DNA from: Amorphus orientalis
Lineage (GTDB): Bacteria > Pseudomonadota > Alphaproteobacteria > Rhizobiales > Amorphaceae
Assembly (NCBI RefSeq): GCF_030814015.1
Contig: NZ_JAUSUL010000004.1
Coordinates: 124,001-188,000, forward strand
Direction: 5' to 3'
DNA: 64,000 nucleotides
This document shows, one piece after another, positions 42,658-47,548 of the stretch. Each line of letters opens with the position of its first letter. Within the stretch, counting starts at the first letter, position 1. The notes under the pieces are model-generated. The model saw only the letters and a program-made list of their open reading frames with translations. It had not been told where the DNA came from and did no database searches. Position numbers and translations under genes: made by a program.

Positions 42658-43213
42658 TCGGCATCCGCCCGCCGGTGGCGTTGAGGGCGATCGCCTCCTG
42701 CACGGTGGCGTCGAGCTCCTCGCAGAGGCTCACGAAATCCCGGATCGTACAGAAATGGATGTTGGGCGTGGCGTACCATGGCTCCGGCAGATGCGGCGTG
42801 ATCGGCATCCGGCCCTGGAAAAGGAGCTGCATCCGCATGCGCCAGTGCCCGAAATTCGGAAACGACACGATCGCGTAGCTGCCGATGCGCAGAAGATTCT
42901 GAAGCACGGTCTTGGGATCGCGGGTCGCCTGCAGCGTCTGGCTCAGGATCACATAGTCGAAGGATTCGTCCAGATAGGCGTCCAGATCGGCGTCGGCGTC
43001 CCCCTGGATCACCGACAGACCGCGGGCCACGCACTCGTTCACACCGGTCTGGGAGAGTTCGATGCCGCGCGCGTCCACGCCCTTGTCGAGGGCGAGCCGC
43101 TCCATCAGTTCGCCGTCGCCGCATCCGACGTCGAGCACGCGCGAGCCGGGCGCGACCAGGCTCGCCACGACTTCCAGGTCGAAACGGGAACCGTTGTGGG
43201 TGATGATGGTCAT
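42593..43213 (-). CDS. metW: methionine biosynthesis protein MetW
   Basis: The 206-residue protein has the SAM-binding motif [17 protein letters not shown] and the MetW blocks [33 protein letters not shown] (in short parts), [11 protein letters not shown] and [24 protein letters not shown]. In alpha- and betaproteobacteria MetW works with MetX, apparently by activating or stabilising the acyltransferase. Its ATG overlaps the metX stop codon (ATGA), so the two are translationally coupled. The open frame upstream lies inside metX and is not used. The 3' end overlaps the convergent methyltransferase gene. Confidence 0.95.
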
Positions 43214-44418
43214 TCGGCGTCCGGATCCGCTGCAGGCGGCTCGATCCCCCGCACATGGGCGGCGCCGGTCAGGAAGCCGCGCGTCACACGGAAAAGTTCC
43301 GGCTCGTTGAGCAGAAAGGAATCGTGGCCGCGGTCGGTCTCGATCTCGACGAAGGAGACGTTGGCGCCGGCAGCGTTCAGCGCGTGCACCACGTTGCGGC
43401 TTTCCTTGGTCGGGAACAGCCAGTCCGACGTGAACGAGATCACGCAGAAGCGTGTCGGCGACCGGCGGAAGGCGTTGGCCAGCACGCCGCGATGGTCGAT
43501 GGCGAGGTCGAAATAGTCCATCGCCCGGGTGACGTAGAGATAGGAGTTCGCGTCGAACCGGTCGACGAAGGTCGAGCCCTGGTGGCGCAGATAGCTCTCG
43601 ATCTGGAAATCGGCGTCGAACCCGAACGTGATCTGATCCCGGTCCTGCAGCGCACGGCCGAACTTGCTGTGCAAGGCCTCCTCCGAGACATAGGTGATGT
43701 GCGCGGCCATGCGCGCCACCGACAGTCCCTTCTTCGGGATCAGGCCCTCTTCCAGATAACGGCCGCCGCGCCAGTTCGGATCGGCCATGATCGCCTGCCG
43801 GCCGACTTCGTGAAACGCGATGTTCTGGGAGGAATGACGCGCGCCGGCGGCGATCGGCACCGCAGCGAACACCCGCTCCGGATAGCTCGCCGCCCATTCC
43901 AGGACCTGCATGCCGCCCATCGATCCGCCGACCACGGCGAACAGCGTGTCGATCCCGAGACGGTCGATCAGCATCGCCTGGGCCCGGACCATGTCGGCGA
44001 TGGTGACAACCGGCAGCTTCAGTCCGTAGCGCCCGCCTTCCGGGTCGCGCGAGGCCGGGCCGGTCGTGCCGGCGCAGCCGCCGAGCACGTTGGCGCAGAT
44101 GACGAAGAAACGGTCGGTATCGACCGGACGGCCCGGCCCGACCATCAGGCTCCACCAGCCCGGCTTGCCGGTGATCGGGTGCGTCGACGCAGCGTACTGG
44201 TCGCCGGTCAGCGCATGGCAGACAAGAATGGCGTTGGAGCGGTCGGCGTTCAGCTCGCCGTAGGTTTCGTAGGCGATCTGCCAGGGCGCCAGCGTCCGGC
44301 CCGCGTCGAGGACCAGCGGCTCATCGACACCGAAGCGCTCGACCGGGCTCGACGGGGAATCGACCTCCCTGAGCCGTGCCTGTGACACGGCGTCCTCATG
44401 GTCGGGGTGGTGGGTCAT
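43210..44418 (-). CDS. metX: homoserine O-acyltransferase
   Basis: The 402-residue alpha/beta-hydrolase has the catalytic serine in [10 protein letters not shown] (S166), the aspartate in [11 protein letters not shown] and the histidine in DRGHDSFLL. It acylates homoserine for methionine synthesis; acetyl is the usual annotation, but succinyl cannot be ruled out by eye. The start at 44418 is chosen because a good promoter (44463-44491) would start the mRNA near 44456, which leaves the upstream ATG at 44460 outside or at the very edge of the transcript. I found no SAM riboswitch ahead of it. Confidence 0.94.
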
Positions 44419-44462
44419 ACGGGGTCCGGACAAGGGAAGGTCAGCTGCTCGCTGGGTCATGT

Positions 44463-44491: not shown

Positions 44492-44576
44492 TGTTTTCTT
44501 TGATTTTGCGGCTCCACTCTTCTAAGGGTGTCGGCTCGCGTCAGGCTTGGTTCGCCGACGACTTATGGTACCCCTC

Positions 44577-45416
44577 ATGTCTCTTACGACCTCACGGGGG
44601 TCATCGGATTCGGCCCCGGTGACGCTCGATGCTCTCCGGAACCGGATCGATACGATCGACGCCGAGGTTCACGCCCTGTTGATGGAGCGTGCCCGCATGG
44701 CGGCTGACATCGCCGCCACCAAGGGCGACCTGCGGTCGGCGACAATCATCCAGCCGGATCGCGAGGCGCGTGTCCTCAAGCGGCGCTTCGACGATCATGA
44801 CGGCGTCCTGCCTCTCCCAATCATCGCGCATATCTGGCGCACCGTCATCTCGGGCGTGTCGGGTCTGCAAAGGCCGTTCCAGATTCACCTCTCCGATTCA
44901 GGCGACGGCGTGGCACGCGACGTCGCGCGCTTCTGGTTCGGCTTCCAGGCCGGGCTCGTTCCGGCCGACACGGCGGCATCGGCGCTCGCCTCACTGGCCT
45001 CCAACCCCGGGGACCTGGCGGTGGTGCCGCTTGCCGGGGGCGACGGCTGGTGGACCGGGCTCGGCGAGACCGCCCATGTGGTCGCCCGGCTGCATGCCCC
45101 CGGACGCGAATCCGATCACTGCTTCCTGATCGGCGGCGCGCTGATCGGACGGTCGACGGAAGGGGCGACCCTTTACCGGGCCGCGCTCGGGTCAACCGGC
45201 GACGTCCCGGACATCGACGGCGTGGACATCATCGACACCGTATCGGGCCCTGGCGGAGCGCATGCGCTGATCGCCTCGAGGCTCCCGGAAGAGACGGTGG
45301 ACAAGGCGTGGCGAGAGGCCACGGGGATCGACAGCCGGCCGCTGGCCATCGGCGGCTTCGATCCGGATCTGATTTCGGTTGCCGGTGTCGCCGCGCAATC
45401 CAGTAGGAGTGAATGA
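44577..45416 (+). CDS. chorismate mutase (AroQ class) with extra C-terminal domain
   Basis: The 279-residue protein opens with an AroQ-type chorismate mutase (about 17-97): [26 protein letters not shown], then an [14 protein letters not shown] segment and [12 protein letters not shown]. It turns chorismate to prephenate, the branch point to phenylalanine and tyrosine. Residues 100-279 are not needed for that. They resemble the order of elements in prephenate dehydratase (for example [13 protein letters not shown] where the enzyme has GVVPIENS), but the catalytic TRF motif is missing. hisC follows 1 bp after the stop and tyrC overlaps hisC, so the three form one operon. The start is the ATG at 44577. 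Confidence 0.88.
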
Positions 45417-45417
45417 G

Positions 45418-46551
45418 ATGACTGATGGCAACACGGTGAATCGTCCCGTCGCCCGCCCCGGCGTCATGGCGATCGCGCCCTATGTCCCGGGCAAGTCCAA
45501 GGGCAGCCGTGTCCGCACCTATCACAAGCTCTCCTCCAACGAGACGCCGCTCGGGCCGAGCCCGAAGGCGGTCGAGGCCTACAAGACGGCGGCATCCCAC
45601 CTCGAGCTTTATCCGGACGGCTCGACGGCGGAGCTGCGCGAAGCCATCGCCGGCGCGATGGGCATCAATCCGGCCCAGATCATCTGCGGCAACGGCTCCG
45701 ACGACCTGCTCGGCATGATCACGCACGCCTATATCGGCGAGGGCGACGAGACGATCTTCACCGAGCACGGGTTCCTGATGTACCGCATCGTCACCCTGGC
45801 GGCGGGCGGCACCCCTGTCGTGATCCCGGAAACCGACAAGAAGGCCGATGTCGACGCGATCCTCGCCGCGGTGACGCCGCGCACCAAGATCGTGTTCCTC
45901 GCCAATCCCAACAATCCGACGGGCACCTACCTGCCCCAGTCGGAGGTGCGCCGCCTGCACGCGGGCCTGCCGAAGAACGTGGTGCTCGTGCTCGACGCGG
46001 CCTATGCGGAATATGTCCGGCGCAACGACTACGAGGCGGGCATCGAGCTCGTCGGCCAGAGCGAGAACGTGATCATGACCCGCACCTTCTCCAAGGTGCA
46101 CGGACTGGCGGCGCTGCGCGTCGGCTGGGCCTACGGTCCGGAGCACATGATCGACGCGCTGAACCGGATCCGCGGCCCGTTCAACATCAACGCGCCGGGG
46201 CTTGCCGCCGCGACCGCCGCGATCAAGGACCGCGCCTTCCTGGAGGCTGCGGTGGACCACAATGCCAAATGGCTGCCGTGGCTCACCGAGGCGTTCACGG
46301 AGCTGGGCATCGAGGTGACGCCGAGCGTCGGAAACTTCCTGCTTCTCAATTTCCCGGAAGGTTCCGGCCTCACGGCGGAAGCCGCCGACCTGTTCCTGCT
46401 CGAGGAAGGGATCGTGCTGCGCCGGCTGGAGCCCTACAACCTGCCGAACGCGCTGCGCATGTCGATCGGGAGCGAAGAAGCCAACCGCGCCACCGTGGAT
46501 GCGCTCGCCCGCTTCATGAAGGGCGGCGGGGAACAGGCCGCCCATGGCTGA
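45418..46551 (+). CDS. hisC: histidinol-phosphate / aromatic aminotransferase
   Basis: The 377-residue protein is a class I/II PLP aminotransferase of the HisC type: [41 protein letters not shown] and the PLP-binding K226 in [17 protein letters not shown]. HisC enzymes make histidinol phosphate from imidazole-acetol phosphate, and many also transaminate aromatic keto acids. Placed between chorismate mutase and TyrC, this copy probably serves tyrosine or phenylalanine synthesis. TAGGAG precedes the ATG at 45418. The 3' end overlaps tyrC by 8 bp. Confidence 0.92.
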
Positions 46552-47548
46552 TCCCCTGTTTCGCCGTGTCGCCATCATCGGCATCGGCCTGATCGGTTCC
46601 TCCATCGCCCGCAAGGTGATGAAGGAAGGTCTGGCCGAGGAAATCGCGATCTGCGACCGGGGCGCCGCCGCGCTTGCGGAAGCCCGCGAGCTCGGCCTCG
46701 GGCACGTCTACGAGGAGAATCCGGGCGACGCCGTCAAGGGCGCCGGCCTGGTCGTCTCCTGCGTTCCGGTCGGGGCCGCCGGCGACGTGGCCGTGTCGAT
46801 CGCGCCCTGGCTGGAGCCGGACGCGCTGGTCACCGACACCGGATCGGTCAAGGCAAGCGTGGTGCGGCAGATGCTGCCTCACCTGCCCGATGCCTCGCGC
46901 TTCGTGCCGGCTCATCCGGTTGCGGGAACGGAGAATTCCGGCCCCTCCGCCGGGTTTGCCGACCTGTTCGAGAACCGCTGGTGCATCCTGACGCCCACCC
47001 GCGAGACCGATCTGCGGGCGCTCGACCGGGTGTCGGAGTTCTGGCGGCGGCTGGGCGCGGACGTCGAGACGATGACACCGGAGCACCACGATCTGGTGCT
47101 GGCCATCACCAGCCATCTGCCGCATCTGATCGCCTACAACATCGTCGGCACCGCGGACGACCTCGAAGAGGTGACCCAGTCCGAGGTCATCAAGTTCTCC
47201 GCGGGCGGCTTTCGCGACTTCACGCGCCTGGCCGCCTCGGATCCGACCATGTGGCGCGACGTCTTCCTGCACAACCGCGAGGCAGTGCTGGAGGCGCTCG
47301 GCCGCTTCTCCGAGGATCTGGCCGCCCTGCAGCGGGCGATCCGGTGGAGCGACGGCACCACCCTGTTCGACACCTTTACCCGCACCCGTGCGATCCGCCG
47401 CGGCATCATCGATGCCGGCCAGGAAATCGCCGAGCCCGATTTCGGACGGCGCGCGGCGACGTCGAAATCAGCGGACGCGGATGGCGTCGACGGGGACCGG
47501 GGGGATGCGCCCGAGCGGAAACAGGCCGGCGCTCACCCGTCCCGCTGA
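46544..47548 (+). CDS. tyrC: prephenate/arogenate dehydrogenase (cyclohexadienyl dehydrogenase)
   Basis: The 334-residue protein has the NAD(P)-binding [13 protein letters not shown] (GxGxxG at 13-18), [11 protein letters not shown], the substrate-binding [14 protein letters not shown], and [19 protein letters not shown]. It oxidatively decarboxylates prephenate or arogenate in tyrosine synthesis. It overlaps hisC by 8 bp. The last roughly 30 residues, after PDFGRR, look unlike the family end; they are rich in Asp, Gly and Lys and run 81 bp into the 3' end of the convergent DUF2125 gene, suggesting stop-codon drift. Confidence 0.93.

Follow-up and report, generated by a model that had tools for sequence, protein, structure and literature searches.

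A chorismate mutase of Amorphus orientalis very probably carries the dehydratase half of a P-protein without its middle lobe

In the proteobacterial P-protein (AroQ-PheA), a chorismate mutase (CM) domain of the CM_P2 subtype is followed in one chain by prephenate dehydratase (PDT; PF00800) and an ACT domain (PF01842). Passages of a 2005 paper give aroQ-pheA>hisHb>tyrA as an ancestral gene string and state that the alphaproteobacteria lost the aroQ-pheA fusion (PMC1173090). A second relevant system is SeGqqA, a Komagataeibacter PDT without a CM domain, whose middle subdomain, according to the structural report, was lost by proteolysis during crystallisation; what was left superposed at 0.76 A and retained L-Phe binding (PMC8192741). 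In that structure (7am0, same sequence as 7alz), the missing segment is the one that appears to be missing from the fusion described here, and lobe 1 and the ACT domain keep their fold. The loss in SeGqqA is a laboratory artefact of an active enzyme, whereas in the alphaproteobacterial fusion it would be genetic and ancient; the folded SeGqqA remainder nevertheless shows that a PDT can lose its middle lobe and still be a viable, folded structure. The closest annotation is NCBIfam PRK06034 (NF004695-NF004698, "hypothetical protein"), which has the same fused architecture as our protein, whose models name neither an origin nor a function, and whose related sequences reach beyond the order.

The gene studied here lies in a window of 64,000 nucleotides (the whole stretch of DNA that was analysed) from contig NZ_JAUSUL010000004.1 of Amorphus orientalis, and its features are collected in Table 1. 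Pfam CM_2 matches (E 5.3e-14) residues 20-98 as counted from the ATG, which are residues 30-108 in the TTG-start form, in agreement with the initial annotation, which had ended the AroQ domain at about residue 97. The best NCBI mutase model for this half is CM_P2 (TIGR01807; 62.4 bits), all other CM models scoring 33.3 bits or less. Residues R21, R38, K49, R62, E63, and Q98, which we take from E. coli CM to be catalytic, are invariant in the CM domain across a 50-row alignment (A1) of the Amorphus protein and 49 loci. A1 leaves out 11 more loci that have the gene (L016, L026, L035, L036, L038, L039, L049, L050, L052, L053, and L055), each being the same genome or a congener; L003 is the same locus as the Amorphus sequence. 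The fusion gene is the sole CM_2 match found in the genome (assembly 97% complete), so its product is presumably the working mutase, with a CM half that would make prephenate. The single PF00800 match in the same genome is a separate, complete, stand-alone PDT (L002, profile positions 1-178, TRF present).

Table 1. Features of the fusion gene and its surroundings, in positions of the window
Feature	Position	Strand	Basis or remark
aroQ-fusion ORF	44547/44577-45416	+	Open; TTG start at 44547 or ATG at 44577; 279 residues
AroQ (CM_2) chorismate mutase domain	44577..44870	+	Residues 1-98; Pfam CM_2, CM_P2
Putative PDT lobe 1 remnant	44871..45092	+	Residues 99-172; outside-order HMM, P-protein lobe 1 match
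Junction without PDT middle lobe (~85 residues, GqqA 86-170)	45093..45116	+	Boundary approximate
HCFLIGG strand, where PDT has its TRF-(F/L)IIG strand; T, R, and F lost	45117..45137	+	Profile alignment columns
Putative degenerate ACT-derived domain, end LAIGGFDP at the place of LGSYP	45138..45413	+	Profile comparison
hisC (HisHb-type aminotransferase), next gene	45418..46551	+	ORF; ATG 1 base after the aroQ-fusion stop
tyrA/tyrC-type dehydrogenase, third gene	46544..47548	+	ORF
metX-like gene, divergent, upstream	43210..44460	-	ORF

The neighborhood is shared by many relatives. Of 39 family loci, 32 have HisC downstream in the same orientation, 17 have a TyrA detected there as well (flanks of up to 1.5 kb), and 23 have MetX upstream in the opposite orientation. 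The relic thus sits where the ancestral aroQ-pheA>hisHb>tyrA string, as given in the passages cited above, would put the fusion. Open frames also run opposite metX (43255-44385, plus strand, 376 codons) and opposite aroQ/hisC (45229-46614, minus strand, 461 codons); these probably arise as a side effect of coding sequence rich in G+C.

In the TTG-start form, PRK06034 aligns with residues 21-202 at E 5.9e-31, which establishes homology, but the best model scores 107.7 bits where its cut-off is 355, so that the membership threshold is missed. Within the order, 219 of 297 genomes match NF004697, many of them weakly. Across the class, a profile built from 50 order members finds matches in 221 of 289 genomes: 181 have an E value of 1e-20 or better, and 40 have one of 1e-17 or worse and may represent the mutase domain alone. 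In the class members fetched, the C-terminal extension is open and conserved. Three class-family members (from G325, G303, and G439) pass the CM_P2 cut-off. In a sample of 58 genomes, 27 have a fusion-profile E value better than 1e-20 and 26 of these also have a PDT match, the exception (G487) being a draft of ~390 contigs that is 91% complete. None of 30 PDT loci has a CM domain on the PDT ORF, and 29 carry the TRF motif as judged by a simple pattern. The one named relative in a contig scan is Bradyrhizobium lablabi (L001), near-identical copies of whose gene occur in genomes of the same order; on these grounds the window is placed in the Hyphomicrobiales (Alphaproteobacteria). Two loci of class family f55 (L129 and L130) encode short, divergent fused mutases of 235 and 249 amino acids with no HisC or MetX detected in their neighborhood, and are possibly a further-reduced or relocated form of the fusion. 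These two and the divergent L132 are left out of the class family used below, L131 is a 100-base placeholder, and the "outside the order" profile comprises 32 sequences after removal of the same-order L133-L136.

Beyond the CM domain, the Amorphus protein matches no Pfam family up to E 10, including PF00800 and ACT. The initial annotation had nevertheless recognized in these residues a dehydratase-like order of elements, quoting peptide strings that are indeed present in the ORF translation, and this order is real. The C terminus scores 33.6 bits (residues 109-172) against the outside-order HMM, well beyond chance, the maximum among 2000 shuffles being 6.0 bits. To place this family, C-terminal parts of the 32 class members from outside the order were compared by hhalign with 18 P-proteins; a motif filter applied before the profiles were built had started from 30 loci of each kind and kept 22 for PDT and 18 for P-proteins. 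The region after the CM domain aligned with P-proteins from end to end (probability 96.5%, E 9.5e-10). Lobe 1 of the P-protein alone matched the class C terminus at E 7.5e-7, with column shuffles negative, as did the ACT domain alone at E 4.6e-8 and the TRF strand plus ACT at E 6.2e-9; the P-protein middle lobe (lobe 2; probability 0.5%) and the CM domain found no match there. The proposed dehydratase origin is therefore borne out, with the middle lobe gone, and the suggestion that an ACT domain is missing has to be reversed: the last ~80 residues appear to be a degenerate ACT domain, and this is the best-matching part of the extension. A class profile restricted to match columns scored 54.2 against P-proteins (E 1.6e-7); the maximum among 200 column shuffles was 23.8 (probability 3.8%), and the reversed profile reached 0.8%.

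Two other origins were weighed against these comparisons. The module might come from a stand-alone alphaproteobacterial PDT that was first stripped of its middle lobe and later joined to a free AroQ, and both parts of the module are indeed PDT-related. However, the match-column profile that finds P-proteins at 1.6e-7 matches alphaproteobacterial stand-alone PDTs at E 0.0035 (0.0022 with inserts), a weak match that points to a P-protein as the source, and the CM half belongs to the P-protein clade and the gene position fits a P-protein, making this order of events very improbable. A mixed profile of stand-alone and P-protein PDTs gave 79.5% and E 1.5e-5, which counts against the assignment. Equally hard to credit is an unrelated domain, of another type-2 periplasmic-binding-like or ACT-like fold, that merely resembles PDT. 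It draws on a two-sequence AlphaFold2 model (Amorphus and L001) with a pLDDT of 36, and on Pfam, which is silent on the Amorphus extension and reports PDT in 2 of the 32 class C termini (best E 0.0056) beside four other families with one or two members each, ACT not being among the families listed; an NCBIfam scan of the same C termini returned the PRK06034 models and single-member matches. A search of 177,635 PDB sequences with the profile had a PDT as its best match, aligned on the ACT domain at E 0.055. But the two pieces that flank the gap each match P-proteins, in the expected order and under shuffle control, the CM subtype and gene position agree with a P-protein, and truncated forms occur outside the alphaproteobacteria (see below). 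A genome scan with the C-terminal profile points the same way. Over 299 genomes of the phylum it matched 57 nonalphaproteobacterial genomes; all 35 matches with a listed CM_P2 place sit just downstream of CM_P2 on the same strand, and in the remaining 22 genomes the match overlaps or adjoins a PDT match. Together with the hhalign result and a CM half nearest CM_P2, this bears out the earlier proposal of descent from a CM-PDT fusion. As to the two-lobed type-2 periplasmic-binding fold, on which that proposal had been staked, sequence comparison yields one lobe and the two-sequence AlphaFold2 model has the low pLDDT given above.

The C-terminal part thus appears to be the dehydratase half of a P-protein (CM-PDT-ACT) minus its middle lobe. 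For Amorphus itself, the assignment rests on a chain from Amorphus through the class family to the P-protein, because the direct order-level match is weak: the Amorphus protein with that of its congener (L004) aligns with the class family from end to end (97.6%, E 3.2e-12), and 40 Hyphomicrobiales rows without the Amorphus family match P-proteins at E 0.0014, with lobe 1 at E 3.4e-4, ACT at E 2.3e-3, and lobe 2 unmatched. With the Amorphus sequence as master, the A1 C terminus matches at E 0.002, which counts against. The ACT domain of the Amorphus protein is accordingly seen at the profile level, through the Amorphus genus and then the class family, and the Amorphus copy of the module appears more worn than the class family.

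The segment that appears to have been removed corresponds to residues 86-170 of GqqA, 88-172 of L002, and about 198-282 of the P-protein L065, the borders GqqA 85/171 mapping to L065 197/283. Profile boundaries near the junction are uncertain, and RVVARLPF could be the ICGEVEL strand of PDT or a different one. Motifs have been lost as well. The E, N, and S of PIENS and the T, R, and F of TRF, which we take to be catalytic motifs of PDT, are present in 18 of 18 P-proteins and are replaced or gapped in the class family. The earlier observations that LAVVPLAGG stands in place of GVVPIENS and that TRF is absent both hold, the PIENS columns being replaced in the family and none of the three residues being kept at the TRF strand. 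With the middle lobe, TRF, and PIENS all gone, loss of dehydratase catalysis, as first proposed, seems probable. The same fate befell the motifs that presumably form the Phe site of the ACT domain: the G of GAL and the E, R, and P of ESRP occur in 18 of 18 P-proteins, and their columns are unconserved in the 32 class members. Set beside a P-protein, the class fusion has the same order of CM, lobe 1, TRF strand, and ACT, the same CM subtype, and the same place upstream of hisC/tyrA; of the parts that define a P-protein, the AroQ domain and a degenerate ACT domain are present, and a complete two-lobed PDT, PIENS/TRF, and GAL/ESRP are absent. Unlike a P-protein, it is without the ~85-residue middle lobe, and dehydratase activity would not be expected of it.

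These losses raise the question of whether the module is simply nonfunctional debris still wearing away, with the CM domain alone mattering. In addition to the lost Phe-site motifs, two lineages speak for such decay. In all eight sampled genomes of a second genus of the Amorphus family, the C-terminal part has shrunk to 126-139 amino acids, against 181 in the Amorphus protein; most of the ACT part is gone from these proteins (L005, L007, L009, L012, L014, L018, L019, and L022), while the WW and the final motif region partly persist. In the 14 genomes listed of family f23, of the same order, the module is unmatched. Hence, it is dispensable in places. In the f23 genomes among the listed CM_P2 matches, the mutase has a weak score (E about 1e-7), as if it had been replaced by another AroQ type. 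However, in class members the module is open and conserved, and has near-invariant residues of its own (R, G, WW, LP, D, and GxY). Moreover, among nine Bradyrhizobium-type sequences (36 pairs) dN/dS is 0.07-0.27 in the C-terminal part, compared with 0.035-0.22 in the CM half. Ratios well below 1, taken with these residues, argue against debris, at least in Bradyrhizobium-type sequences, and we regard wear without function as unlikely.

The same excision can be seen outside the class. Genome G815, of the same phylum but another class, has a 309-amino-acid frame (L176:2560-3447) comprising CM_2, PDT profile positions 1-78, and ACT, in a cluster that ORF reading gives as gyrA-serC-truncated P-protein-hisC. 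The class of G815 is inferred from this gene order, which, in the passages of the 2005 paper that treat it, fits the beta- and gammaproteobacteria (PMC1173090). The truncated P-protein finds matches in 192 of 194 genomes of the order of G815. Among the matches listed there, four are contiguous, in frames of 297-314 amino acids (G815, G1011, G887, and G968, all of family f254), and the others reach about residue 189 at most, typically in frames of at least 360 amino acids; among the matches listed for 370 genomes of its class, G815 alone is contiguous. All four truncated f254 proteins (L176 and L180-L182) consist of CM, PDT positions 1-78 or 1-80, and ACT. Lobe 1 stops after ICGEVEL and the sequence resumes at P/T-R-Y-L-V; PIENS and TRF are altered, PGAL is retained (PGVL in two), and ETRP/ESRP has become ETRS or ESRT, so that most of the ACT ligand-motif residues are still there. 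In L176, the sole one scanned, Pfam still finds both PDT and ACT. Thus, these proteins resemble the class fusion in that the middle lobe is cut at corresponding borders and a separate PDT is present, but they differ from it in keeping most Phe-site residues and, by their likeness to full-length sisters, in being more recent.

A complete PDT lies elsewhere in all four genomes with a truncated P-protein. Of 16 further genomes, nine combine a full-length P-protein with a complete PDT at another locus (G917, G942, G991, G888, G943, G969, G1012, G435, and G963, the first three being f254 sisters), six have a single PDT match, the P-protein itself, and one (G902) is fragmentary. The co-occurrence of a full P-protein and a PDT reads as the redundant state expected before truncation, and the whole reads as three steps, from P-protein only, through P-protein plus PDT, to truncated P-protein plus PDT. 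That most of the related genomes sampled seem to retain the relic, and that a few distant ones show the same excision, suggests that the leftovers still do a job, for example in control or assembly.

Overall, it is very probable, from profile and motif comparisons, that the Amorphus protein is the alphaproteobacterial descendant of a P-protein whose middle lobe was excised and whose lobe 1 and ACT domain were kept as a noncatalytic module. That P-protein (AroQ-PDT-ACT) would have been ancestral to the proteobacteria. By the time of the class ancestor, prephenate dehydration would have passed to a stand-alone PDT; the fused PDT would have lost the middle lobe that closes its catalytic cleft, and its lobe 1, linker strand, and ACT domain would have remained on the mutase as one module. 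This module would hold or adjust the mutase through dimerization and allosteric feedback, originally perhaps by Phe at the ACT interface, and a dimerization or feedback role is the most likely one. In the alphaproteobacteria the canonical Phe site is unconserved and has drifted, so that the module may now bind a different ligand, if it binds one at all, or may serve a mainly structural role. Control of the mutase at the enzyme level is a better guess than the control of the aroQ-hisC-tyrC operon that had been suggested for a retained ligand-binding domain.

In another reading, the module would mainly contact a second shikimate-pathway enzyme instead of sensing amino acids, much as the Mycobacterium tuberculosis mutase contacts DAHP synthase. 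Complexes of mutase and DAHP synthase exist (PMC7762937, PMC4281200), and the class family has acquired new invariant WW and LP residues. The truncated nonalphaproteobacterial forms, however, keep most Phe-site residues instead, and we think such a partner improbable as the main role. Returning to excision with retained control, lobe excision may be a repeatable route from a two-lobed catalytic domain to a regulatory or assembly module, in which a class-wide P-protein relic controls the main mutase through a retooled ACT/lobe-1 part (marked by WW and ARLP, and perhaps with a new ligand) and which a distant proteobacterial family took independently when it had a stand-alone dehydratase; this wider proposal we put forward tentatively, giving it slightly less than an even chance. 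We found no description of the truncated fusion in the open-licence literature, in a search whose recall is incomplete (one paper holding a search term was missed).

This reading accounts for an unannotated domain that most of the class genomes sampled carry on their chorismate mutase (the 181 of 289 noted above). It also revises the statement, made in those passages of the 2005 paper, that aroQ-pheA was lost in the alphaproteobacterial ancestor (PMC1173090): the fusion appears to be still there, but gutted. Family f254, with full P-protein and PDT in some members beside truncated P-protein and PDT in others, offers a natural series on why regulatory parts outlive catalytic parts, and control of the Phe/Tyr branch in the class becomes directly testable.
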